Below are positions 3,355 through 45,104 of a stretch of DNA of 64,000 nucleotides, one piece after another; within the stretch, counting starts at the first letter, position 1, and every line of letters begins with the position of its first letter. Position numbers and translations under genes: made by a program. The stretch lies in the IMG/VR virus record IMGVR_UViG_3300032050_000004, positions 62,001-126,000 of that record, one strand, 5' to 3'. Source of the DNA: a virus. The notes beneath the pieces are model-generated. The model searched no databases and had not been told where the DNA came from. It worked only from the letters and a program-made list of their open reading frames with translations.

Positions 3355-4755
3355 TTATCTTGGAATACCAATATAACTAAATCTATTAGAACCACAACCG
3401 GGTCCTCCACAATTCTGTACAGACGTGCCATTAAACCAAGTTGGAACAGTAGTAGTTGGAGTATTTGTAGTAAGAGGATTTTCATTGTACGTTAATATCC
3501 AACCAACATTATTAGCATTATTAAAGAATTTTCCATTTTTAGCAACCCAATAAGATACATGAGAAATTTCTGCTGTAACATAACCGGTAGTGGCACCTAT
3601 ATCTGCTAGTATAGATGCGTATTGTCCAAATACCTTATCAATAGTTATTAATCCACTATGTATTCTAATTTTAATAAATGCTTCGGAAGCTCCATTTGTA
3701 CATTCAAAATGAGTGTTTTTTACTGTAAAATCTTTTACAACAGTTGATCCTTGTCCATTAAAATCTATACCTGCCCTAACAGATGAACCTTCAATGATAC
3801 AATCTTCAACAACACATCCAGAAGCAGCTATTATGCCGAATGCCATATCACCAGAACCAAAATATCTACAACTTCTAAATGTGGTATGATTTGATTGAGA
3901 ATTGAAATTTGTAGAACCTGCCCAATTTCCTCTGTCTGCAATCCAACCAATATTACAATTCGTTGCGAAACAATTTTCAATTGTAGTTCTAAGGGCAAAT
4001 CTTAAATGAATACATTCTTTTAAAGATTCTCCAAGTATATTTTGATAATACGCACCATATGAAGGACCAATATCTATACCAATTTGATTTGATGTGCCTT
4101 TTAAAACTAAATTTCTGAAAGTGCATCTTAAATCGACCATGACATTTGCATCTCCATTATCATTTGGAGAAGGTCTATTTAATATCGGTAAAGATCCTGT
4201 AGAAACTAATTTGGAATAACCTCCATCTATTTCAAAATATTTAGAATATTTTTCAATTGTTAAAGATTTAGGACCTAAATAATAAATTCCACCTTTTGCT
4301 TTAACGGTTCCACCATTAGAAGTTGCTAATTTGATTGCCATTTGCCATGCTGCCCAATCAACATTATCTGATATTGTTGCATTAATTCCCGGATAGTTAC
4401 TGTTTATTGTTGATTGAGAAATTCCAAGTTGAGCAAATGTTAAATTTTGTCTTACTGCCCCAAACTGTTCAGGAGAATATTCAATTGCTGTTCCGTTTAT
4501 AGTTATATTAGTTTCTTGACCCTTGAAAAGAGAATCTTCTACCCACACTCCATTTCCAATATGTCTATGTTGTTTACCATTAATTGGGTTGATATTGTAG
4601 TAACCCATTTTTATTGTATTGGTACTACTAAAGGGATTGTAATTTAATTCTGTAGTATCGGACAATACTCGATACCAGTTTATCGCTCTTTGTGCTATAA
4701 CATTGTTAGAACACAAAATAATTGCGATCAAATAAAATAATTTTAATTTATGCAT
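3355..4755 (-). CDS. Exported right-handed beta-helix protein (pectate-lyase-like fold)
   Basis: 466 residues. Signal peptide at residues 1-22 (hydrophobic core, end NNVIAQ). From about residue 120 the pattern DNVDWAAWQMAIKLATSNGG-TVKAKGGIYYLG is the start of the pectate-lyase-type beta-helix found in phage tailspikes and polysaccharide lyases. It is followed by repeating short strands (FRNLVLKG, VVEDCIIEGSS, VVKDFTVKNTHFEC). Such proteins bind or cut polysaccharides. A signal peptide is unusual for a tailspike, so it may be secreted instead. Overlaps the upstream gene by 13 bases. Confidence 0.75.
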   Translation of the reverse strand: MHKLKLFYLIAIILCSNNVIAQRAINWYRVLSDTTELNYNPFSSTNTIKMGYYNINPINGKQHRHIGNGVWVEDSLFKGQETNITINGTAIEYSPEQFGAVRQNLTFAQLGISQSTINSNYPGINATISDNVDWAAWQMAIKLATSNGGTVKAKGGIYYLGPKSLTIEKYSKYFEIDGGYSKLVSTGSLPILNRPSPNDNGDANVMVDLRCTFRNLVLKGTSNQIGIDIGPSYGAYYQNILGESLKECIHLRFALRTTIENCFATNCNIGWIADRGNWAGSTNFNSQSNHTTFRSCRYFGSGDMAFGIIAASGCVVEDCIIEGSSVRAGIDFNGQGSTVVKDFTVKNTHFECTNGASEAFIKIRIHSGLITIDKVFGQYASILADIGATTGYVTAEISHVSYWVAKNGKFFNNANNVGWILTYNENPLTTNTPTTTVPTWFNGTSVQNCGGPGCGSNRFSYIGIPR

Positions 4756-5291
4756 ATTTTTTCAAACTTTAATGTTTCATCATTCTTTAAAAGTCTTATA
4801 AAATAAATTCCTTTACTAAAATTTACTAAATTGACAGTAGTGTTTATGTTTATAAGTTGATTTGTCAAAATTAATTTATTGCAGGAATCATAAATTTCAT
4901 ACTGAACTTTTTCTTCATCACTGTAATTGTAGATATTGAATAGACCTGAACTTGGGTTTGGAAAAATACTGAATTCTTTATCTTTAATTTTTGGTACCAA
5001 CCAATAATCATATTCGGTAGGATCTGAAATTATTTTTCCATTTTTTTCAAAGGTGTATCCAAAAACTACATAATGACTTTGTGTACTATCGAAAAAAATG
5101 TTATTGTTATAAAAAGACAATTTCCACAATATATTTCCATTCTGATCAGTTCTTATTATATCGTATTCATTGGTTTTGTGATAGTTTAAACTATAATCAA
5201 AACCAATATCCAACCCTAAGACTTCTTGAGAATGACAAATGCTAGTTTTTAAAACTAGCATGAAAATAATTGAAATAAAATATTTTATCAT
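4743..5291 (-). CDS. Exported protein with T9SS type A sorting domain
   Basis: 182 residues. Signal peptide at residues 1-21 (ends CHSQ). Residues about 105-182 form a Por-secretion-tail (T9SS type A) domain: FSIFPNPSSGLFNI, then YEIYDSCNKLIL, NLVNFSKGIYFIRLL and the Lys-rich end. In Bacteroidetes this domain directs a protein from the periplasm across the outer membrane through the type IX system. The middle part is short and unrecognised. The octamer TATTTATT lies seven bases before the ATG (5299-5306). Either acquired from a host or used to place a phage product on the host surface. Confidence 0.8.
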   Translation of the reverse strand: MIKYFISIIFMLVLKTSICHSQEVLGLDIGFDYSLNYHKTNEYDIIRTDQNGNILWKLSFYNNNIFFDSTQSHYVVFGYTFEKNGKIISDPTEYDYWLVPKIKDKEFSIFPNPSSGLFNIYNYSDEEKVQYEIYDSCNKLILTNQLININTTVNLVNFSKGIYFIRLLKNDETLKFEKICIN

Positions 5292-16613: not shown

Positions 16614-17369
16614 TCAAATAAAATATTTTGGGTATTTTTTTACTAAATTGGATACCTGCAAAAGAACGTGTCGTTTGTGATAATCATTTATGTTTTGTAT
16701 CCTTGAATCTATTAACACAGTATCTGTAATTAACCAATCCTCAATAGCTGTTAACAAAGTGTCTTTAGTGAGTTGATCATAATCTTTATTGTGAATTTGA
16801 TTCACATAAAGTAATATGGAATCAAACTTCGCATCAATTTCATAAATTGAATATAAATCTAATCCTATCTCTTCTCTGTTTTTATTTCTTAATTTTTGAA
16901 ACTCTATATTATTTTTAAATATCTCTAACTCATTAATCCTTCTAACATCAGTTATTACCAATTTGTGATCATCCTCTGTTATTTTTGAAAATGCCCTATT
17001 GGTCCAGTGGTGAGGCCCATTTATTTCCTTCATCTTTTCCCCAAACCATATCATATATGGTCTTAACACTTCTTTGGTGTCTGAGTTTTTAGGATTTAAA
17101 AAATCAATATCGTTGAATTCTATTTCAATACCCTTACTCTTTAGATCTTCCCAAACCTGTGCTTTAAAAAAATCATTTAAATCTTCTTTAAGAGTATCGG
17201 CGAAAGAAATTCTTTTAAAACCTAATCTTGAAACTAAAAATTTGGCTATCGTATCCTTACCAGATCTTGCATAACCCATTAAACCAATCAAAATTTTGTT
17301 ATTAAGATTTTCATAATTTATCTCATGAGATGCATTATCAATTAATTCTGCAGGTATTTCTAAGTTCAT
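16614..17369 (-). CDS. Deoxynucleoside monophosphate kinase
   Basis: 251 residues. P-loop GYARSGKDT at about residues 33-41, then FKRISFADTLKEDL and the phage dNMP-kinase motif LVITDVRRINELEIF. It resembles T4 gene 1 type kinases that phosphorylate dNMPs to dNDPs for phage DNA synthesis. Works with thymidylate synthase and ribonucleotide reductase encoded in the same window. Length is normal for the group. The substrate range cannot be derived from sequence. Confidence 0.88.
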   Translation of the reverse strand: MNLEIPAELIDNASHEINYENLNNKILIGLMGYARSGKDTIAKFLVSRLGFKRISFADTLKEDLNDFFKAQVWEDLKSKGIEIEFNDIDFLNPKNSDTKEVLRPYMIWFGEKMKEINGPHHWTNRAFSKITEDDHKLVITDVRRINELEIFKNNIEFQKLRNKNREEIGLDLYSIYEIDAKFDSILLYVNQIHNKDYDQLTKDTLLTAIEDWLITDTVLIDSRIQNINDYHKRHVLLQVSNLVKKYPKYFI

Positions 17370-17422
17370 TTCTTATTTTTTTTTGTAAATTTATTAAAAA
17401 ATTATAATATTTAAAAATAAGA

Positions 17423-17602
17423 ATGAGTAAAATTAAATTAAATATAGAACAAGACTATTACATAGACGATTATGGACGTTGGGTTTTTACTAAAGAATAT
17501 CATTTAAAAAGAGGATATTGTTGTTCACCAAAGAAAAATCCCGGTTGTCTGAATTGTCCTTACAGAGAAAAAGAAGAACCTAAGAATTCAGAAAATAATT
17601 AA
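17423..17602 (+). CDS. DUF5522-like small Cys-rich protein
   Basis: 59 residues. Core YGRWVFTKEYHLKRGYCC and CLNCPYREK correspond to the DUF5522 pattern (VFT-x-x-YHL-x-RG-x-CC ... C-x-x-CPY) common in Bacteroidetes; four Cys probably bind a metal. Here the spacing between the CC pair and C-x-x-C is a few residues longer than I recall. Function unknown. Supports a Bacteroidetes host range. Confidence 0.75.
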   Translation: MSKIKLNIEQDYYIDDYGRWVFTKEYHLKRGYCCSPKKNPGCLNCPYREKEEPKNSENN

Positions 17603-17834
17603 TTTTATTTTTAAGACTTTTAATCTTTAGTTTAAAGTGACTGAAAGGGTTAATCTTAGACAAATAAAAATAAAATCCAAGAAAACAAGCTGACAAAAGG
17701 TAAAAAATTGAATCCGTAATCCAATAGGAACCTGTCAATTTCATTATTAGCAAGAACAAAGCATCGTAACCCAGAGGTAGGAAAAACATACCCAGCATTA
17801 AACAAATTGTTGCTATCTTGTTCGAATTTTTCAC
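17580..17834 (-). CDS. Small membrane protein
   Basis: 84 residues from a GTG start; no ATG is available upstream in frame. Two hydrophobic segments (about residues 7-32 and 38-58) followed by a basic C-terminal tail (KLKIKSLKNKI). Preferred over the overlapping frame 17656-17931 because of its clear membrane topology. Function unknown. Confidence 0.5.
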   Translation of the reverse strand: MKNSNKIATICLMLGMFFLPLGYDALFLLIMKLTGSYWITDSIFYLLSACFLGFYFYLSKINPFSHFKLKIKSLKNKINYFLNS

Positions 17835-17919: not shown

Positions 17920-17945
17920 AAAAAAGCCCAAAATTGGGCTTTTTT
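17920..17945 (-). terminator. Terminator after tRNA-Phe
   Basis: AAAAAGCCCAA / TTGGGCTTTTT hairpin immediately 3-prime of the minus-strand tRNA. Confidence 0.85.
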
Positions 17946-17947
17946 AG

Positions 17948-18046
17948 TGGTGTCAGGAGGTGGAATTGAACCGTGACTTTCGTCACTCCGTAAGGACCCG
18001 ACTCATGGTTTTTCACGCCATTGCTCTACCTCTGAGCTATCCTGAC
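17948..18046 (-). tRNA. tRNA-Phe (GAA) with a 23-base insertion in the T-stem
   Basis: Read on the minus strand: acceptor GTCAGGA pairs with TCCTGAC, discriminator A, encoded CCA (17950-17948), D-arm TAGCTC ... GAGC. The anticodon arm is ATGGC-GTGAAAA-ACCAT, giving anticodon GAA with U33 and A37. The T-loop is TTCAATT with 3-prime stem strand CCACC. The 5-prime T-stem strand is broken: GGT, then 23 bases (17973-17995) holding the hairpin GTGAC-GAAA-GTCAC, then GG. Removing the 23 bases restores a perfect GGTGG/CCACC stem and a normal length. One C-A mismatch closes the anticodon loop. A decayed or unusual long-variable-arm tRNA is the alternative. Confidence 0.75.
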
Positions 18047-18122
18047 ATTTATGAATAATTACAATGCAAATATAATAAAATTAAAACTTAAAAAACAAGT
18101 TATATCAAAAAAAACTTCAAAC

Positions 18123-19996: not shown

Positions 19997-22900
19997 TTAA
20001 TCCCTCCAAACTAATATTTTCAATATTTTCCCAATTTTCGATATTATTACTCATGACTGGTTTTGCTCCGGCTTCTTTGTTATAAGCTAGTGTTATATGA
20101 GGTGTTCTTTTTCTTTGCGTAGAGAAATTAATATCCATGTCAGTAGAAACTCTTAACGCTACCACATCAGAATTTATACCTATTCCAATTACTTTTATAT
20201 CAACTATATTATCTAACAAATTCTCGTCATAAATTTTACCCATATTGATAGTAATGTGATCTGCTGTGATAGTCCAATCTTGTCCTATTTTCTCTTCTTT
20301 TTTAAGTTTGTTAATTAATCCAAGAAGTTTATTTTTTGAATTTTGATCTAATACTATTGCAGAATATTTAGGTTTTCTATCTTCTACTTCTTTTAAAATA
20401 TTTTTTAAAATTTGAAATCTGTTCTCAAAAATTTTAAAATTTTCATTCAAACCATAATCTAAAATTCTTTCTTTTCTTACATCAAATCTTGTAACTGGAA
20501 TCCATATATTTTGTCCTCCATTTTCTATTTCTGATTCCTCTGTAACCAAAACATAGTAATTTAGTGCTATTAAATTTTCATAAATTAAATTGTCTTGTGC
20601 TTCATTGTCTGATTCATCATTTTTATACAGATTTTTAACATCAATAACTAAATATCTTTTTCCTGTAATTAGATTTAATTTTGGAAGCCTAGGTTCATTT
20701 CCTTTAAAAGATATCCTATCTCCTCTTTTAACATTATATTTATCAATCGAAAGAGAATCTTGAATTATATCATAGTATCTTTTCCCTTTTTCACCAAGTG
20801 AATCAAATAAATTTTTTAAACTTTTTACTTCACTAATTGCTAATTTTTTATCTAATATATTCAACATTTTTTTATAAAAAGATGTTGCTAAAGCAATGTT
20901 TTGGTTTGGATCAACATTGACACTTCTAATGAACTTTAGTAATTCTTCTTTACTAGCATTATTATCTTTGCACAATTCTAAAAATTTAGCAAATGCATCT
21001 ATTCTTTTTTCATTATCAGTTTGTAGAGTTGAATTTCTATAAAAATAAGCAACTAGTTCTTGTTGGTTTTTTTTGAGTTCAGATAGTGGTATAAAATTAT
21101 CTTGTGAATTGCTAAATTTAAAATTTTTATAGAATTCCAAAACTCCCGGTAAAAATTCTTTTATAATTATATTTCCATCTACATCTACCACATTTTTACC
21201 ATACTTCTGTATTAGAAATGCCTTACCCCTTTGTTTATCCTGTTCAAATTCTTCATATTTTTTATTGTAGAATTCAACTATTTCATCTTTGAGGGTGTTT
21301 TTTTCACTACCAGTTGGTGTATTCAAAATTTTATTTACTTCCTGATCATTCAATTGTGGAACATAAAATTTTAAAAACTGTAATTCTTTATTAAATTCAT
21401 CTCCTTTAACAAAGTTTTTAATTAATTCCTTATTTTTTTCAATAAATTTTTTTCTTTCCTTTTGTAATAATACTTTTTTATCATCTTTGATTACGAAAGG
21501 TTTTGGTCTGGTAATTCTATTTCCTTCTTGATCTAATAATGGTTGTCCATTCTCTCCAAATACTAATTCTTGCCTTACTCCAATATATTCTTTTTTGCTT
21601 GGATTATATTTTGCATTTTGATGCTTTCTCTCTCTAGGGGATTCAGCAAATTTTACAAAGTTGGCAACACCTACATTTGATGGTCCGAAAACAGCTAACA
21701 TTTCCGGAGTTTTATTGTCTAAAATGTAATTAAATAAATTTTGATATATTTTATTACTCCTTTCATCAGATAGAAATCTTAAAACATTCTTAAATGAATC
21801 CTGATAAGATCTTATAAATTGATCAAGGTTTATAATTTTAAATATTTTTTCGAATTCAATATCTGGTATCCTACCTATAAAGGATGAAATATTTTTCAAT
21901 ATGAGACTAGGATTTTTACTGTACATTGCTAAAATGTCTATCTTAGCAAGCTCTTCTATCGCATCGTTTCTGAATTTATCGACTAATTTTTCAAAATTAT
22001 CTAAAAATTTTTCTGGATTTGTTTCAGCAAGAGTTTTTATATCTATATTTCTTTCGTCAAACCATTCCTGCCCTCTGATTTCAACAATCAAATTTCTATG
22101 GGCTTCTATTAAGTCTTCTCTGTGATCAGCAAGTTTATTTAATAAATCAGGTTTATTTCTAATTACATCAGTTAAAAACCTAGCAGCACCAGATTCACTT
22201 CCAACCCTAGGCATGTTTCCATCGTAGGTTGTAAGTTTTGATATATTACTTTTAGCATAAGGAGAAAAACATAAAAAATCAATAATCCTATCATCACCAT
22301 CACTATATCCAGATGAAGTTTTTTGACTGCCCGGTTGATGATTACCTTCTTGTTTTATTTCTCTTAAATTTTTATCTGAACGATATCCAGACATTCCAAC
22401 CTGTGTCGACCACTTTCCATTAGGATTGCCAGCTGGAGGACCAATTAACTGTAAATTTTGATTTTCTGATCCAGCAAAACCAGATCCCACTTGACACATT
22501 ACACCCCATTTATTATGTTCATTTAATTCTGCACCTTCAGATAACCATTTTCCATCAATTACTTCAACCCAAATTCTTTTTGAACCGTCATTTATTGAAT
22601 ATATTCTTTTTATTCTACCTTGTTTTTCAGCTTCTAAGTGTGGAGCTTCTTCTTCTTGTTGTACATCTTTTTTTGAATCATCTTTATTTTCTACAAAATC
22701 ATAAGCATCATTAAGATTCATATTTTTTATTGCATTATCATTTCCTGATAATTTAAACCAATTTAGAACTGATAATATTTTTTGTTTATCTTCTTCCGTA
22801 AATTCGTCTACTCCCTTTTCTTTTACCGTTTTTATAAGCCAAGGAGCTAACCTGCAATTATTAATCTTTTCTTGATTACCCTCAAAAACTTGGTAAATTA

Positions 22901-23079: not shown

Positions 23080-24132
23080 TCATCGCATAATTACACTATA
23101 TTTCTCAATTAAATTATCTTTTATTTTAATAATTTGAGAATTTACTTCATCGGAAGTCAAAGTTCTCTCCAGAGATTCAAAATGTATTCTATAAGAAACT
23201 GATTTTTGACCTGTCTTTGGATTCAAAAAACTATCAATTAGATCTGTTTTTGATACCAAATTTTCAGAACAATCATTTAAAATTGTATAGAAATCATTTG
23301 GCATAAATGGTTCATAATAGTAGAATGAAATATCTCTAACAGCAGAAGGGTATTTTGAATACTCTTTAAATTTAGTTATTTGACCTTTTTTGAACTGATT
23401 TATAAACCTTTCGTCATCAGTCCAAAAATATCTTATATCAGGAATTTCGAAAAATATCATTGCTAACCTTTCAAGTCCTAAACCAAAAGCCCAACCCGAT
23501 TTATTAATTAAGCCACAATTTGTCATGATTTCTTCCCTTATTACTCCAGCACCTAGCACCTCAACCCATTTTCCATTTAATAAAACTTCAATTTCACATG
23601 ATGGATTCGTAAAAGGAAAATAAGTATCTACAAATTTGTATTCACAGCCGGGAAATAAAAATTCTATTAGACCCCCTAAATTTTGCTTTATAACCTCGCA
23701 AACCTTAATTGGATCTATTTGACCATCTAATATAGAAACCCCTTCCATTTGATGGAAAACGGGGTAATGAAAGGCATCAATTTCATCTTTTCTATAAACA
23801 TCACCAGTAACTAAAAAATTATTCTTTCCATCTCTCATAAACTGGGTTTGATGAGCTGATGTATGAGTTCTCAAAACTGTATTAACATCTTTGTAAAAGG
23901 TGTCTGATTGAGACCTTGATGGATGATCACTTGGAATCAATAAATCATCAAAATTTGACTTTGTGTCCACATATGGATTTATACCTTCAAATATTTCTCT
24001 AGAATTTTTGAAATAATCATAAATTCTTTCTTTAATTATACAAATAGGATGATCAGGAATTTGATATATGTTTTTTCCTATTTTATTTTTTATACTAAGT
24101 GGTATATTACCTAAAGGTATAAAATCTTTCAT
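23080..24132 (-). CDS. pheS: Monomeric (mitochondrial-type) phenylalanyl-tRNA synthetase
   Basis: 350 residues combining a class II PheRS catalytic core and a C-terminal FDX-ACB anticodon-binding domain in one chain. Core: HPSRSQSDTFY, RTHTSAHQTQFM, motif 2 VTGDVYRKDEID-FHYPVFHQMEGV, and motif 3 GWAFGLGLERLAM. FDX-ACB, about residues 258-350: YPSAVRDISFYY, NDFYTILNDC, YRIHFESLERTLTSDEV. Bacterial PheRS is an alpha2-beta2 enzyme; this compact form is known for mitochondrial FARS2/MSF1. It charges tRNA-Phe, and a phage tRNA-Phe lies at 17948-18046. Four-base overlap with the upstream purine gene indicates an operon. Confidence 0.9.
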   Translation of the reverse strand: MKDFIPLGNIPLSIKNKIGKNIYQIPDHPICIIKERIYDYFKNSREIFEGINPYVDTKSNFDDLLIPSDHPSRSQSDTFYKDVNTVLRTHTSAHQTQFMRDGKNNFLVTGDVYRKDEIDAFHYPVFHQMEGVSILDGQIDPIKVCEVIKQNLGGLIEFLFPGCEYKFVDTYFPFTNPSCEIEVLLNGKWVEVLGAGVIREEIMTNCGLINKSGWAFGLGLERLAMIFFEIPDIRYFWTDDERFINQFKKGQITKFKEYSKYPSAVRDISFYYYEPFMPNDFYTILNDCSENLVSKTDLIDSFLNPKTGQKSVSYRIHFESLERTLTSDEVNSQIIKIKDNLIEKYSVIMR

Positions 24133-25244
24133 TTTTTATATCTTAAAAATGAATTATTAGTTATGAGATTAAATTTTACATTACCAATAAATGAAAATAA
24201 ATCTAGATGATTAGTATAACTCATGGAAGATTTAAGATAATGTTCGAAATTTTCAGTCCATTGATTAAGTGTATATTCTACTGGCCTTCTTGTTGAAATG
24301 CCTTCTGAAGTTTTTAAAACTTTTTTTCCCCAATCTTTTTGAACTTCTTTCGTTGACATTCCTCTAAATTTTTTGGTTAATCTATAATTTCTAGAATATA
24401 ACCATTTAGTAAATTTAGATCTAGGGTCTAATTTTATTTTATTGAACAAGTAGGTTTCCCCACAAGACTCTAAAGCTTTATTAAAAATACTTCCGATCAT
24501 TACATAATCAGCACCTAATGCTAATGCTTTGATAATGTCTGAATATTTTTTCATACCACCATCTGCAACAATTTTTGCTTCACATTTTAATTCTTTCTTT
24601 AATTGATAGCATTCTTGAATTAAAGAACCCATAGGATATCCTATTGCCGTTTGCTGAGTTGTTAAACAACCATTTCCATTTCCTATTCCCAATCTAACAA
24701 AATTACAACCTGCATCTGATAGAGCCACATATGAATTTGGGTTTGCTACATTTCCAGCCATTATAATCAATTTATTACCATATTTTCTTTTGGCTGTTTT
24801 AATTGCATTTTTCAAATCTACAATGTGTCCATTCGCTGTATCAATGCAAACATTAACCTCTTCGTTTTTTGGAATTGTGAAATTATTATCAAGAAATTCA
24901 TAAACAAAATCAGCAAGAGAATAAGAAACAAAACACATTTTACCGTTCCTATTATAATTATTGGTTTTAATCCCTCTTGGATAACAAACGTTTATATTGT
25001 TTGAGATAAAATCTTCTCTATTTTCTTTAGAAACAACCGTATCCATAGGTGCAGTAATGAGTGGTAAATGTTCGTGATGATGGAAACCACTTTCTACTGG
25101 ATATGAAATGCTAATATTAGACCTTGAACTTATTTCAGTAGTAACTTCCGGAATTATCAAAATATCATCAAAATCAAATTTCAAATCTTTCGTACAAGAA
25201 TTTCTTATAGATAATATTTCATTAGGTTCTAATTGTTCAAACAT
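24129..25244 (-). CDS. GMP reductase / IMP dehydrogenase family protein
   Basis: 371 residues, a TIM-barrel without a CBS insert. Seen: FDDILIIPE, PLITAPMDTVVS, NVCIDTANGH, GNVANPNSYVALSDAGCNFVRLGIGNG, and the catalytic loop with Cys in GNGCLTTQQTAIGYP. Also VADGGMKKYSDIIKALALGADYVMIGS and the flap KFRGMSTKEVQKDWG followed by TSEGI. The CBS-less length and the flap fit GMP reductase better than IMPDH. It interconverts IMP and GMP pools. First gene of an operon with PheRS behind a host-type promoter. Confidence 0.85.
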   Translation of the reverse strand: MFEQLEPNEILSIRNSCTKDLKFDFDDILIIPEVTTEISSRSNISISYPVESGFHHHEHLPLITAPMDTVVSKENREDFISNNINVCYPRGIKTNNYNRNGKMCFVSYSLADFVYEFLDNNFTIPKNEEVNVCIDTANGHIVDLKNAIKTAKRKYGNKLIIMAGNVANPNSYVALSDAGCNFVRLGIGNGNGCLTTQQTAIGYPMGSLIQECYQLKKELKCEAKIVADGGMKKYSDIIKALALGADYVMIGSIFNKALESCGETYLFNKIKLDPRSKFTKWLYSRNYRLTKKFRGMSTKEVQKDWGKKVLKTSEGISTRRPVEYTLNQWTENFEHYLKSSMSYTNHLDLFSFIGNVKFNLITNNSFLRYKK

Positions 25245-26557: not shown

Positions 26558-27232
26558 TTAATTCAATTTTAATTTTAATAATTTCAAAAGTTCCTCATCT
26601 AATTTCTTATCTGGATCTGGATTTATAGCATATAATGCAAACTCTGCTATGAAATTCATATATTTTTTTTTAGGAACCTCATTACATTTACCTCTAGTCT
26701 GTATTTCACGACCAGTCTTATTACAAATTTCTATGGTTACGTGAGGTAAATTATCTTTATCCCTGAGAGACAATATGAGTATTTCTCTCCTTTTCAATCT
26801 ATTAATATATGAAAATCCACCTACACAATTACCCATCAACTCACCCTCAAGGGCAAGTTCATCAGGTTTTAGTTTCAAAAAGAAATGTTCATTATCAGAA
26901 CATTTATAAACAATTCTAGATTCAACTAAATTTTGTTTAGATATATTTTTAAAATTTTGCTTTAGATTTTTATGCCATTCATCTGATTTAGATAGTGCTT
27001 CATCAAAAGTCAAAGACAAAATGTTAGGTTTTTCTATTTGAGCCCAATCAACAATATATCTTATTTGTTCAATATTTAATATTTGAGGATTCTTTTTTGA
27101 TTCTTTAGCCAACCACACATTGTATTTAGAGGTCCCAATTGAATCAGAGATGTCTAAAATACTATATAATAGCTCCTCAGTTATTTTAAACTTATCTATG
27201 AGAAATTTACTTTTATTATCAATCATAGACAT
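26558..27232 (-). CDS. PcfJ-like protein
   Basis: Start chosen at ATG 27232; the longer frame uses GTG at 27259 and a further ATG is at 27226. Residues about 130-215 match the PcfJ-like family: GELMGNCVGGFSY, ILSLRDKDNLPHVTIEI, GREIQTRGKCNEVPKKKY. PcfJ-like proteins occur on plasmids and phages; their biochemical role is not settled. The thioesterase gene begins two bases after its stop. A second PcfJ-like protein is at 34508-36373. Confidence 0.75.
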   Translation of the reverse strand: MSMIDNKSKFLIDKFKITEELLYSILDISDSIGTSKYNVWLAKESKKNPQILNIEQIRYIVDWAQIEKPNILSLTFDEALSKSDEWHKNLKQNFKNISKQNLVESRIVYKCSDNEHFFLKLKPDELALEGELMGNCVGGFSYINRLKRREILILSLRDKDNLPHVTIEICNKTGREIQTRGKCNEVPKKKYMNFIAEFALYAINPDPDKKLDEELLKLLKLKLN

Positions 27233-27494
27233 ATATTGTAACTTTGTAATTGGAGTCACCTAAATCTTCCTTAATGTAAGAGCCATGGTGAAATTTGTCT
27301 TCACCAAATTGAATTTTATTTTTTCTATAAGTTATTTTAAATTCAAATCCGTTTGGTATATCACCGTATTCAATCATTTTGAAATCTTGAACTGTATAAC
27401 ACTTCAACGCAACTCTCAATTTATGTTGGAGCTGCGTCAAAGTGCGACGATCAAAAAGATCTTTATCTACTAGGTATTCATATGGTTTAATCAT
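27219..27494 (-). CDS. Hypothetical protein
   Basis: 91 residues, mixed alpha/beta with an even pattern of strands (GFEFKITYRKNKIQFG; NYKVTIYVYD). Overlaps the start of the PcfJ-like gene; lies 11 bases after the AT-hook gene start region ends at 27505. Not recognised. Confidence 0.6.
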   Translation of the reverse strand: MIKPYEYLVDKDLFDRRTLTQLQHKLRVALKCYTVQDFKMIEYGDIPNGFEFKITYRKNKIQFGEDKFHHGSYIKEDLGDSNYKVTIYVYD

Positions 27495-33519: not shown

Positions 33520-34461
33520 ATGAGATCAATACATACAATAGCAGGTTTACCAAGAGCTGGTAGTACTTTACTTTGTCAAATTTTAAATTCAAATCCAAGA
33601 TTTCATGTTACCCCAACAAGTGCTGTTTTGGACATGTTGAAAACGATGAGAGGTAATTTTAGTTCGAATATGACTTTCAGAGCACAGGATAGAATGTCTA
33701 TCTATGAAAATTTTAGAAATGGATTAAAGGGTTTTTTGGAAGGTTTTTTTTATGACAGTGAAGTAGTTTTTGACAAAAACAGAGCTTGGACTACTAATAT
33801 TAAGTTGTTAGACACGATTCTACAAAACGATGAAACTAAAATAATTTGGCTTTACCGAGATCCTGTTGAAATAGTTTCTAGTATAGAAGCACAGTATCAA
33901 AAAACTCTATTGTTAGAGAATATGGATGAAACTTCAGCTCCCGGTGCCTTTATGACACTTGAGAGAAGAATTAGTACCTATACTTCACCTGAAGGCTTGA
34001 TAGGTTTTCCTGTAGAAGGTTTGAAAGATGCATTAGAGATGGGATATGCAAATAGAATTTTGTTTGTCAAATATTTTGAGTTAACTAATGAACCCAAAAT
34101 GACGTTAGAGAAAATTCATGATTTTATCGGAGAAGCATATTACGATTATGATTTCAAAAACATAAAACAATCAACTTGGGAATTTGATGGTGTATACAAC
34201 TATAAATTTCCACATGTAATAAAAGAAGGAGAAATTAAATATAAAAGAGCAGATCTTCAACTTGAGCCTAAATACGTTGCTGCAATCAACGAAAGATATG
34301 CTGCTTTGAACAAATTAATGTTCGAAGGTGATCCAAGTGCATTATTAGGTCTAAGTAGTGAAGAGTTTGCAAAACAATTAGAAGAAATGAACAACCAAAA
34401 CAATTCAGATCAAAATCAAGGCTTATTTGAGAAGATGATTAATGACAGTGAAGTTTTATAA
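33520..34461 (+). CDS. Sulfotransferase family protein
   Basis: 313 residues. The 5-prime phosphosulfate-binding loop HTIAGLPRAGSTLLCQIL is at residues 5-22, and the 3-prime phosphate motif IIWLYRDPVEIVSSIEAQ near 110-127. These bind PAPS; the enzyme moves sulfate to a glycan, lipid or small molecule. Similar genes are known in marine phages. It stands alone on the plus strand in a minus-strand region and ends in an Asn/Gln-rich tail. The acceptor cannot be predicted. Confidence 0.85.
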   Translation: MRSIHTIAGLPRAGSTLLCQILNSNPRFHVTPTSAVLDMLKTMRGNFSSNMTFRAQDRMSIYENFRNGLKGFLEGFFYDSEVVFDKNRAWTTNIKLLDTILQNDETKIIWLYRDPVEIVSSIEAQYQKTLLLENMDETSAPGAFMTLERRISTYTSPEGLIGFPVEGLKDALEMGYANRILFVKYFELTNEPKMTLEKIHDFIGEAYYDYDFKNIKQSTWEFDGVYNYKFPHVIKEGEIKYKRADLQLEPKYVAAINERYAALNKLMFEGDPSALLGLSSEEFAKQLEEMNNQNNSDQNQGLFEKMINDSEVL

Positions 34462-34480: not shown

Positions 34481-34509
34481 AAAAAAGGGGTAAAAATACC
34501 CCTTTTTTT
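34481..34509. terminator. Bidirectional terminator
   Basis: AAAAAAGGGGTA / TACCCCTTTTTTT between convergent genes ending at 34461 and 34508. Confidence 0.9.
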
Positions 34510-36373
34510 ATTTCTTATTGTCAACTCCTAATTTTATACTAGGAACCTCTTTATAAGCTATATCATTATCCTCTAGGAATTTAATTACGTCTTTTTTAAA
34601 TCTATCTGGACCGTAAATATTACAAGGCCCTTTTACGCCTACGAACTCAAGACCATACTTTCCTAATTCTAACACCATCATATATTCATAAAACTCTTCT
34701 GATTTGCGTTCAGGGTTATTGTCATAAACACTGAATGCAACGTATTCTCCTGTAGAAACTCTTCTGACATAAGAGGCTGCACAGTTCTTCATTTCTTTTG
34801 CTTTGTCAACTAATTTGTTTGGTAAATCAATTACTTTAACTTTTATCTTACCTTGTTTATATTCTTCAAGATATTTGAATTTGTTAGAGAAATCAATATA
34901 TTTTTCATTTACTTCCTGATCGTTTAAATAACTTCTGTGCTTGATTAAATCATCGTGAAATCTCAAAAGCTTTGAATGTTTCTTTATCTTATAGAAAACT
35001 TTATTGAAATCCCATTTTAACTCCACCAACATTCTTTGACAATCATCATATATATTAAAATCATATTTTGAAATGTCCTCGATAACTACCCTATCCTCTT
35101 TGTTTGCATCTATTGTTTTACAAAAATCTTTAACTAAATTCGAAAATTGAATTATTCTTTCATAATTTACATCTTCTCTAAATTCGATTATTTTATAGAG
35201 CTCAATTAAAAAATCTTTTTCATAACTCATACAAAGTCTTATCAAATCCTCATAAGATATGAATCGGATATATTTTATTAAATTTTCATAATCATTAAAG
35301 TCTTTAATTATATTAAAAATAAAAGGAGAAATATGTCTTTCATTTATTTCATCTCTTACAAATACTTTAGCTGCTGTCTTGGAAACATTACCAACATTTT
35401 CATCATATCTTTTAATATCGTATTTAATATAGAACTCCTGACCACTTTCGGTAATGAATTTATAGCCTAATTTATTTTTATCATCTTGATCTAATTGTTC
35501 TTGTAATTGTTTGTTTTTTAAATTAATTAAGAAATTAAATATTTTAAGTGGCGAAGTTGCACCACTTTCTTTCATAAATTTTGTAGTTGGCAATGGACAA
35601 TTAGACATCAAATCAAATAAAAATTTTGGTCCCTTGTTCATGGCTAGTGTAGAAAGATTTGGATAAGATATTATACCAAAAAAACTTGATATTATTTTCT
35701 TTAGTATATCAATTCCTGAAGAAAGTTTTATCTCGCTCAACAATTCATTCGCAATATCTATATTATCAACATCAGAAACATATCTACCAAGCTTACCAAT
35801 AAATTCATGTACATAAATAAAATCTTCTGTAATTTCAACCTCTTCTGTTTTACTAAAAAATAAATTTACCGTATTGACTATTTCACCTAGATCCACCGGT
35901 AAAAAATCAGAATTATCAAAATCTTTAAAATAAATCCTACTTTCTTTGTTTTTCTTAGATATGCTTAATGATGAATAATCATTCTCAATTTGTATTTTAT
36001 TATTTTTTTCAGTTGCAATAAATCTGTATTTGTAAAGTGCTAAATACTTGCTGTTTTCTACTAATAAAAATTTCTCTAAAAATTTTTGATCTGTATTAAA
36101 TATTTGAGAATATACTTCAGCTTTTGTGTAGTCTTTATTGCATTTATCACATAATATTTTAGTTCTTCTTGTGATTTTACTAGTATCAATAAAATCCATT
36201 TTTATGTAATCTTCATAAGAAATTTCTATTTCAAATTCTGAATCAGGTGCCTTAGATATAACATTCCCACAACTACAGTAATATTTATCCATTCCAAAAA
36301 CATCTGTACAAAAATTAGCAAAAATGTATTTAGACTTAATTTCGTCTGTCAAAGATTTATTTATTTTATTCAT
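34508..36373 (-). CDS. Large PcfJ-like protein with N-terminal zinc ribbon
   Basis: 621 residues. Near residues 32-36 CSCG and near 70-80 CDKCNKD suggest a Cys4 zinc ribbon. A long helical middle follows. Near the C-terminus MKNCAASYVRRVSTGEYVAFSVYD and the following beta region resemble the core of PcfJ-like proteins (M-x-x-C-x-x-S-Y ... F-S-V). Role unknown; may relate to DNA or RNA handling. Bracketed by its own terminators. Confidence 0.65.
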   Translation of the reverse strand: MNKINKSLTDEIKSKYIFANFCTDVFGMDKYYCSCGNVISKAPDSEFEIEISYEDYIKMDFIDTSKITRRTKILCDKCNKDYTKAEVYSQIFNTDQKFLEKFLLVENSKYLALYKYRFIATEKNNKIQIENDYSSLSISKKNKESRIYFKDFDNSDFLPVDLGEIVNTVNLFFSKTEEVEITEDFIYVHEFIGKLGRYVSDVDNIDIANELLSEIKLSSGIDILKKIISSFFGIISYPNLSTLAMNKGPKFLFDLMSNCPLPTTKFMKESGATSPLKIFNFLINLKNKQLQEQLDQDDKNKLGYKFITESGQEFYIKYDIKRYDENVGNVSKTAAKVFVRDEINERHISPFIFNIIKDFNDYENLIKYIRFISYEDLIRLCMSYEKDFLIELYKIIEFREDVNYERIIQFSNLVKDFCKTIDANKEDRVVIEDISKYDFNIYDDCQRMLVELKWDFNKVFYKIKKHSKLLRFHDDLIKHRSYLNDQEVNEKYIDFSNKFKYLEEYKQGKIKVKVIDLPNKLVDKAKEMKNCAASYVRRVSTGEYVAFSVYDNNPERKSEEFYEYMMVLELGKYGLEFVGVKGPCNIYGPDRFKKDVIKFLEDNDIAYKEVPSIKLGVDNKK

Positions 36374-44210: not shown

Positions 44211-45104
44211 TAATTTTTTAATAAAATGGCTGAGATTATACCATTTTGCGGTAGCCTTTGAGAGTATTATCCTTTTCGAGGTTCCCTCTTTTATCCACGG
44301 ACCTTTCGATCAACGTAGCCACCAGTCTCAGTCTTTAGACTCCTTTCGGAATCTTGACCAACATTCTCGTCAGAGCTGTTCTGCAACCTAGTAACACCAG
44401 ATAGGATGGCCGTCCCACCACGATGCTTTGAGTCACAAAGTGAAACAGATCTTGCGAACCTGCCTCACACTCAGTTATCATTGCTGACCTGAGCCTTAGA
44501 GACCTTTTGCTCTTGACGCTGGGAGTCTTGGGCTGTGATTTAAATTTTCATATTTAAATGACATGATCCACGAATTTATGAAAGATGTGCTCCCAGAGTA
44601 GATCCGTTCCTTTTGAGAACGAAATACTACACACCTTTCTGTCAGCTTTGCGGTGCCAACGGCCAGATGAAACCAACTCCCACAACTCAACTCGTGTTAC
44701 CGAGTAAAATTATAAGTCTTAGCCAACCTTGCTGGTTAAAGCACTTCCCCTTCGCATGAGGTCGTACTTTATGAGTTTCATACATTTCTGCATTACGCCC
44801 AACCCTGTCATTTCTATCAGTCGGTTGCCCAACCAATCCGTTTAACAGGAAAAACCCTGAGATGTTTCTATTGTACCTCTCGATACTCAACCACACATTC
44901 GTTTATGTGATACAGCCTACTGACCTGCCCGGTTTTTCAACTGCGAACTCTCATTGTTTGGATGTCCTCCCTAACTTTAGGAAGGCGGAACTTGCGGATG
45001 GGTTTTACCCCAAAGGATCATGTGCAAGTATCCTTTTATACTCCGTCACCGGAGTTTATCTTATGGATGCCAAACCACCCAATTTCTTAATCAAAGAACG
45101 ATTT
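44211..45104 (-). ncRNA. Giant structured RNA, unit B (downstream copy)
   Basis: About 0.9 kb with markedly higher GC than the flanks, short ORFs in all frames only, and many local inverted repeats (for example ACTCCGG-TGA-CGGAGT at 45030s-45050s). It begins with boxA-like CGTTCTTTGA (45091-45100) then AAGAAATT-GGGTG. Blocks shared with unit A in the same order: GATAAAC-x-CCGG (to 45029), AGAGCAAAAGGTCTCTAA (44496-44513), GCAGAACAGCTCTGACGA (44367-44384), ACTGAGACTG (44322-44331) and ATGGT-x-TAATCTCA-x-CC (44228-44244). Size and setting resemble phage GOLLD/ROOL-class RNAs, but family membership is untested. Confidence 0.75.
45091..45100 (-). promoter_or_regulatory. boxA-like antitermination element, unit B
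   Basis: CGTTCTTTGA on the minus strand, identical to elements at 46054 and 46301 and like bacterial rRNA boxA (NusB/S10 site). Confidence 0.55.

Follow-up and report, generated by a model that had tools for sequence, protein, structure and literature searches.

A 222,069-bp virus record in IMG/VR encodes a single-chain phenylalanyl-tRNA synthetase (PheRS) whose assignment to the type of the human mitochondrial enzyme, FARS2, is supported by its sequence, its modeled fold and its phylogeny. Downstream on the same strand lies an abnormal tRNA-Phe(GAA) gene. Judging from the sequences and the structural model, we consider it probable that the protein is a phage-owned, architecture-tolerant phenylalanine-charging enzyme paired with the phage's own tRNA-Phe. 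The case goes beyond an ordinary phage aminoacyl-tRNA synthetase (aaRS) in its architecture, in having no full-length match in the GenBank phage collection, in its membership of the FARS2 clade and in its odd tRNA-Phe cluster. Throughout, the window is the whole 64,000-nt stretch that was analyzed (positions 62001-126000 of the record), and L and G numbers are our own handles for contigs, loci and records.

The synthetase gene and its phage

The synthetase gene (Table 1) starts with ATG and runs through 350 codons with zero internal stops; the plus-strand reading of the same interval is not an open frame. Pfam assigns its product a tRNA-synt_2d core (E 6.6e-53) and a C-terminal FDX-ACB domain (E 2.6e-16), and the closest PDB structures are human mitochondrial PheRS, with 3cmq at the top (E 1.5e-87). 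These matches bear out the original prediction of a PheS-like core joined to an FDX-ACB domain within a single chain of this length. Among NCBIfam models, the protein passed mitochondrial pheS_mito (TIGR00469; 341.9 bits, cut-off 258.35), failed SrmL (NF051887; 233.7 bits, cut-off 300) and scored 179.2 bits with bacterial pheS (cut-off 237.45). The start of the gene shares 4 nt with the end of an IMPDH/GMP-reductase-like ORF, with which it would probably form an operon.

Table 1. Features of the window and of the tRNA clusters in syntenic phages (coordinates are those of the window or of the named contig)
Feature	Position	Strand	Basis
Single-chain (FARS2-type) phenylalanyl-tRNA synthetase gene, 350 aa	23080..24132	-	ORF, Pfam, NCBIfam, PDB match, AlphaFold model
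Class II catalytic core, residues 19-247	23392..24078	-	Pfam PF01409 and residue table
FDX-ACB anticodon-binding domain, residues 259-350	23083..23358	-	Pfam PF03147
IMPDH/GMP-reductase-like ORF	24129..25244	-	ORF list and family matches
tRNA-Phe(GAA), 96 nt	17951..18046	-	Rfam RF00005 and partition into arms
Encoded CCA directly 3' of tRNA-Phe	17948-17950	-	Sequence
Hairpin insert of 23 nt, its most likely site being between positions 51 and 52 of the T-stem	17973..17995	-	Partition into arms
TATATTTG, TAnnTTTG-type motif upstream of tRNA	18067..18074	-	Motif reading
Terminator-like hairpin and T run directly after tRNA	17920..17945	-	By eye
L002, odd tRNA-Phe(GAA)-like genes, the first or second truncated at the contig end and the other complete	16971-17046, 17056-17123		
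L003, odd tRNA-Phe(GAA)-like genes, three	20021-20100, 20103-20182, 20203-20320		
L004, odd tRNA-Phe(GAA)-like genes, three	17277-17350, 17358-17480, 17552-17625		

The record is that of a phage, as its size and IMG/VR virus status and its genes matching PHROGs families attest; nearby matches comprise ribonucleotide reductase, helicase, exonuclease, a ParB-like protein, dNMP kinase, thymidylate synthase and amidase, and 2 of the 10 window proteins tried against PHROGs match nothing. A T9SS sorting domain in the ORF at 4743-5291 (PF18962, E 4.9e-12) and promoter-like TAnnTTTG motifs, which we take to be the Bacteroidota -7 type promoter consensus, point to a Bacteroidota host, and this is probably a jumbo phage of that phylum. 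The motif stands upstream of the tRNA position in the window and in L002, L003 and L004, a count made without a chance control. The window also contains a GOLLD RNA (Rfam RF02032, 176.7 bits; 44227-44639, minus strand) in a GC-richer stretch, a sulfotransferase-like ORF (33520-34461, plus strand) and two PcfJ-like ORFs (26558-27259 and 34508-36373, both minus strand).

Fold and catalytic residues

Structure prediction, proposed as a check alongside the original prediction, returned the fold and domain arrangement of human FARS2. An AlphaFold2 model built from an alignment of the window protein and 16 phage homologues had a mean pLDDT of 91.1 and matched 3cmq along the chain in Foldseek (TM 0.94, rmsd 2.0, 390 columns); the best bacterial PheS structures cover approximately 230-260 columns of the model. 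In a comparison of 28 core columns (70-222), hand-picked among the conserved ones, residue 89 is the sole difference between the window protein and human FARS2. His90 and Glu221 are kept, as in FARS2 and PheS, and the concern that active-site residues might be missing is answered by catalytic residues that are those of FARS2.

Distribution among viruses

A search of the 222-kb record, which may be a fragment, for a separate PheT (TIGR00472) matched only the FDX-ACB domain of the enzyme itself, so the second subunit that would have spoken against the single-chain assignment was not found there. Across 17 viral records, which may likewise be fragments, no PheT exceeded the cut-off: in 16 the single PheT match is the C-terminal part of the single-chain enzyme, and the 17th (G005), where the PheRS gene is cut, gave no PheT match. 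Among 2.9 million IMG/VR contigs scanned, 30 further contigs carry a single-chain PheRS (29 from one scan and L134 from another, with L156 excluded as a core match only); L006 and L015 are truncated by contig ends, L006 stopping inside the PheRS gene. The GenBank phage collection (50,697 records) yielded 16 matches, none covering 80% of the query; the best place was confined to the core in 15 records, one of these matches extending to residue 269, and to the FDX-ACB domain in the remaining one.

The phage sequences form two kinds, one window-like (HTSAHQ) and one that we call group B (HMTCYLY), the latter found in records that have as many as 65 tRNA matches. All five other phage proteins tested passed the TIGR00469 cut-off, and none of them passed that of SrmL. 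Among the matches listed from the open-access literature, no title or abstract start described a single-chain PheRS from a phage or a bacterium. In AARS Online, PheRS-M is a single family, and giant viruses are the only viruses sampled (PMC11580382).

Some PheRS-carrying phages have other unusual tRNA genes. Those with anticodon CTA (tRNA-Pyl according to ARAGORN), at L085 19483-19570 and L087 1541-1631 and in G011 (L177) and G014 (L178), are possible amber suppressors. Two adjacent tRNA genes in L086 (16078-16220 and 16230-16367) have large anticodon-arm insertions by Rfam, and ARAGORN reads one of the two as a tRNA with a 49-nt intron; group I introns are far longer than these insertions.

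Odd tRNA-Phe genes downstream of the synthetase

The tRNA-Phe gene in the window lies 5,034 bp downstream of the synthetase gene, both on the minus strand. It scores 35.9 bits against the Rfam tRNA gathering score of 29, with anticodon GAA, so the original prediction of such a gene 5 kb away on the same strand holds; its hairpin insert had gone unmentioned. Cloverleaf arms can be assigned with GAA, U33 and A73, and the variable region and T-arm together are 23 nt over standard. Within this 23-nt segment is a GTGAC-GAAA-GTCAC hairpin. If the segment is assigned to the site between T-stem positions 51 and 52, what remains is a tRNA-Phe of 73 nt whose T-stem has 5 bp and whose anticodon stem has one mismatch. 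On the strength of complementarity and of comparison with the ordinary tRNA-Phe of the relative G005 (86% identical over query 8-48), the insert most likely sits in the T-stem; the alternative is that the variable arm is long and the T-stem weak. An intron is disfavored, as L003 has only 2 nt at the same site.

ARAGORN called no tRNA anywhere in the 64,000-nt window. A call obtained after removal of the insert does not prove a T-stem insert, since arbitrary deletions also restore calls: 465 of 2,754 gave some tRNA call, 431 of them tRNA-Phe(gaa), and even 5-nt deletions sufficed, from which it follows that ARAGORN fails on length alone. The minimum-energy fold of the tRNA by itself kept the acceptor and D stems and none of the other arms, giving no full cloverleaf, and 6 of 200 shuffles folded as well.

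Three phages with the same gene order around PheRS as the window (L002, L003 and L004) also carry odd tRNA-Phe(GAA)-like clusters downstream of the synthetase, behind the TAnnTTTG motif. In L004 two of the genes are near copies and the third, 120 nt long, has 44 nt inserted at the same T-stem site; in L003 two genes lack a canonical T-arm, and the third combines a long D-loop with 2 additional nt at the T-stem site. Seven genes from the window and these three phages were partitioned by hand, with choices made by eye, leaving out the second L004 near copy, the cut L002 copy, one L003 T-arm, inserts and bulges. The stems contain 133 Watson-Crick pairs, 7 GU pairs and 2 mismatches, with two or more standard pair types at 17 of 21 stem positions. 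GAA, U33, G1-C72 and A73 are present in all seven and C37 in five; the D-loop GG and T-loop TTC are missing in four, and CCA is encoded in three (the window tRNA, L002a and L004b).

A cloverleaf scan of the four regions, using a fixed rule written after the genes had been seen, gave 13 matches, 7 of them GAA, and missed one L003 gene. Shuffled regions gave 0.75 to 1.15 matches each (3 GAA in 80), and the opposite strands gave 7 matches with no GAA. The excess is mainly GAA, as the 6 non-GAA matches are not far above the 3.65 expected. Across IMG/VR, one odd-tRNA pattern had no matches, a second matched the L003 phage once and a further one matched 5 stretches, L002 and L004 among them. L159, L161 and L162 were set aside as apparent chance matches in coding sequence, with no ARAGORN tRNA and none of 22 window proteins matched.

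A narrow tRNA-Phe pattern matched 2 of 25 records; its strictness made it unfit for judging absence, and stretches of sequence were read in its place. tRNA-Phe(GAA) was found in 11 of 17 viral records (G000-G006, G008, G010, G013 and G015); none of the 23 ARAGORN tRNAs in the stretch read of G001 is for Phe, and G002, whose ARAGORN tRNA-Phe has C33 and is doubtful, is counted through its odd cluster. No tRNA-Phe occurs in the parts read of G007, G009, G011, G014 and G016, and no tRNA in the 11-kb record G012. In group B, the CCA-encoded tRNA-Phe of G008, G010, G013 and G015 has G at position 8 (for example L029 781-856 and L174 4707-4782), beside a second, more ordinary tRNA-Phe in G010 and G015; position 8 is a near-universal U in tRNAs.

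Cellular homologues

The original prediction called the single-chain form characteristic of mitochondria, and the FARS2 type of the protein agrees with this; exclusivity does not, for single-chain PheRS also occurs in 15 Bacteroidota genomes and in some Patescibacteria. When 84,980 prokaryote species genomes were scanned, 37 loci matched. Sixteen are whole-protein relatives in the 15 Bacteroidota genomes (three of them MAGs), which include Elizabethkingia, Chryseobacterium, Sphingobacterium, Pedobacter, Myroides and others; at one, L052, a stop codon interrupts the gene. The others are two Patescibacteria loci (L065, L066), one FARS2-like locus (L063) and 18 that match the PheS core only, the match of L068 being slightly longer. 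The Bacteroidota homologues are 45-48% identical to the window protein, with the same architecture and length. They are rare: of 296 genomes sampled from the phylum, the query's own genome alone matched. All 15 carriers also have a PheT that exceeds the cut-off, together with a standard PheS core, split over two contigs in one genome, and 15 of the 16 loci have no tRNA (tRNA-Arg at L055); the single-chain family may for these reasons have another role. Sphingobacterium tabacisoli carries two single-chain copies (L049 and L053), and the very similar copies L051 and L057, from genomes labeled Chryseobacterium jejuense CC143 and Pedobacter caeni, suggest horizontal transfer or a mislabeled genome.

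In the two Patescibacteria MAGs, which may be incomplete, no PheT exceeded the cut-off and no second PheS core was found except one weak match in the genome of L066. A sample of 286 Patescibacteria genomes contained 24 with a stretch of at least 150 bits running into the FDX-ACB part of TIGR00469, and none exceeded the cut-off of that model.

Phylogenetic placement

In both trees the window protein grouped with FARS2; the position inside bacterial PheS that would have counted against the original prediction was not recovered. The full-length tree comprised 58 rows with joined PheS and PheT rows as outgroup; fragments (L105, L109) and near copies (L057, L061, L093) were left out, and the tree was begun without L015, L052, L056, L096, L134 and L100, which is the L065 gene again. 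The core-only tree comprised 55 rows, with PheS of Armatimonadetes, Chloroflexi and related groups added, and without 12 thinned rows and L086, for which the cutting rule failed. Eukaryotes are represented by two rows only, human FARS2 and L063. The latter was binned as a Euryarchaeota MAG and carries RFC-like, F1-beta (with presequence), RPB9-like and CAF1-like ORFs, named by eye; from this ORF reading we judge it to be a mis-binned eukaryote contig, and it serves as a second FARS2.

In the full-length tree a clade of 41 rows (support 95/94) joined the phages to the Bacteroidota copies and both eukaryotic rows; within it, FARS2, the window protein, several phage sequences and the Bacteroidota clade radiate from one multifurcation. 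Patescibacteria form the next branch; the tree program warns that their branch and that of the outgroup are both long and join each other, and that the rows for the window and for human are long as well. In the core-only tree, where the composition of four PheS rows deviates, every single-chain row fell on one side of one branch (100/97), and both FARS2 rows joined the window, L005, L007, L087 and L088 in a 7-row set (95/86). With only two eukaryotic sequences included, approximately unbiased (AU) tests rejected no alternative at 0.05: phage monophyly (p 0.111 full-length, 0.287 core), phages and Bacteroidota without eukaryotes (0.142, 0.061), phages with eukaryotes (0.448, 0.444) and Bacteroidota with eukaryotes (0.128, full-length only).

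These trees allow a phage origin of FARS2. Phage descent has been argued for the mitochondrial RNA polymerase and the Twinkle helicase. That FARS2 descends from a phage single-chain PheRS, with phages keeping the ancestral minimal arrangement, is a speculative reading that we regard as doubtful; an ancestral minimal PheRS of this kind would read only the anticodon and acceptor end, and the tRNA-Phe elbow would be free to degenerate, as in mitochondria.

Proposed function and alternatives

According to the pairing that we favor, the phage would produce its own one-piece PheRS, the catalytic core of which would activate phenylalanine while the C-terminal FDX-ACB domain would read the GAA anticodon of tRNA-Phe, the odd downstream tRNAs included. 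With a minimal PheRS, which reads only a few nucleotides and is tolerant of changes in the tRNA body, the phage could keep an odd tRNA-Phe that is poorly handled by the heterotetrameric PheRS of the host and perhaps by its tRNA-targeting nucleases. We infer that the enzyme is active in aminoacylation, that it prefers phage tRNA and that damage to host tRNA is evaded; the leading idea for the purpose, by analogy with PMC10264068, is that the pair may replace tRNA-Phe cut by host defense. The idea of a private phenylalanine pair gains support from the abnormal tRNA-Phe genes.

Published properties of mitochondrial PheRS, as reviewed in PMC4394434, fit such tolerance. The yeast mitochondrial enzyme depends on GAA, G1-C72 and A73; the human one mainly contacts G1-C72 and A73, recognizes G34 and makes 25 tRNA contacts compared with 57 for the enzyme of a T. 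species; monomeric mitochondrial PheRS seems less sensitive to tRNA tertiary structure; and E. coli PheRS reads 11 nucleotides, core included. The odd phage tRNAs keep GAA, G1-C72 and A73 and vary elsewhere. As yeast tetrameric PheRS uses the same determinants (same source), their retention alone does not favor the phage enzyme over that of the host, and tolerance of tRNA shape, not the determinant list, is the point. The odd tRNAs may not work in elongation, given the missing D-loop GG and T-loop TTC in four and C37 in five of the seven, and they are not required, since the relative G005 has the enzyme with an ordinary tRNA-Phe.

The G005 phage also fits an alternative in which the synthetase chiefly charges host tRNA-Phe and backs up the host enzyme in infection, the odd tRNAs being a separate matter, as does the capacity of human mitochondrial PheRS to charge bacterial, eukaryal, chloroplast and mitochondrial tRNA-Phe (PMC4394434). 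However, odd GAA tRNAs lie downstream of the enzyme in all four syntenic phages (the window, L002, L003 and L004; L006, which ends inside the PheRS gene, is left out), and we consider this backup role rather unlikely.

Another candidate is a PheS-related ligase of the SrmL type (the "mystery ligase" of NCBIfam) with a non-translational role, as the Bacteroidota homologues may have. The identity of those homologues to the window protein and their coexistence with PheS/PheT lend this some weight, and for both Bacteroidota proteins tested SrmL was the top-scoring model (317.6 and 317.4 bits); both also passed pheS_mito (291 and 305 bits), so the two models do not cleanly separate the groups. The window protein and the five other phage proteins, by contrast, fail SrmL and pass pheS_mito. 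Cellular Bacteroidota proteins have Gln in place of His90 in 12 of 14 and Asp in place of Glu221 in 14 of 14, whereas the window protein keeps both residues (one phage protein also has Asp at 221), and odd tRNA-Phe genes lie downstream of the phage enzyme. A ligase of this type is distinctly improbable here. A decoy role for the odd tRNAs, in which they would draw host anticodon nucleases or other defenses that target tRNA instead of serving as substrates, with the enzyme independent of them or charging only some, would suit their C37 and missing loop motifs and the proposal that phage tRNAs with changed anticodon loops are insensitive to anticodon nucleases (PMC10264068), but is very unlikely given GAA, G1-C72 and A73 in all seven and the encoded CCA in three.

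The paired phage synthetase and tRNA-Phe would matter in several ways. The phage, Bacteroidota and Patescibacteria single-chain enzymes offer a testable phylogeny for the origin of mitochondrial PheRS, with phages as a candidate route; the decayed tRNA-Phe genes nearby make it testable whether a minimal synthetase permits tRNA decay; and a synthetase and tRNA that differ from the bacterial PheRS:tRNA pair might find use as an orthogonal pair.

Comparison with known systems

Large phages, like the present one, are known to carry aaRS and tRNAs, some of them near Bacteroidetes sequences; the main text of the report on huge phages names no PheRS (PMC7162821). The Patescibacteria enzymes (L065, L066, L101-L111) share with the phage protein a core and FDX-ACB domain in one chain; L065 and L066 are 37-38% identical to it, and the two Patescibacteria proteins tested score below both the pheS_mito and SrmL cut-offs. 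In this group HTT replaces HTS, and Tyr occupies the second FPF position in all 11 of 11. Bacterial heterotetrameric PheRS has a homologous core and FDX-ACB domain, but these are divided between two chains, with editing in PheT, whereas the phage enzyme is one chain. Monomeric mitochondrial PheRS contrasts sharply with tetrameric bacterial and other cytosolic forms (PMC4394434) and lacks editing (PMC7373986), and the phage enzyme would likewise be without it. The nearest known counterpart is human FARS2 (PDB 3cmq, TIGR00469), which has the same two-domain single chain, fold and clade and is 38% identical over the structural alignment, with 415 aa in the crystallized protein compared with 350 aa in the phage; unlike FARS2, the phage PheRS is encoded by a phage, with phage tRNA-Phe genes nearby.
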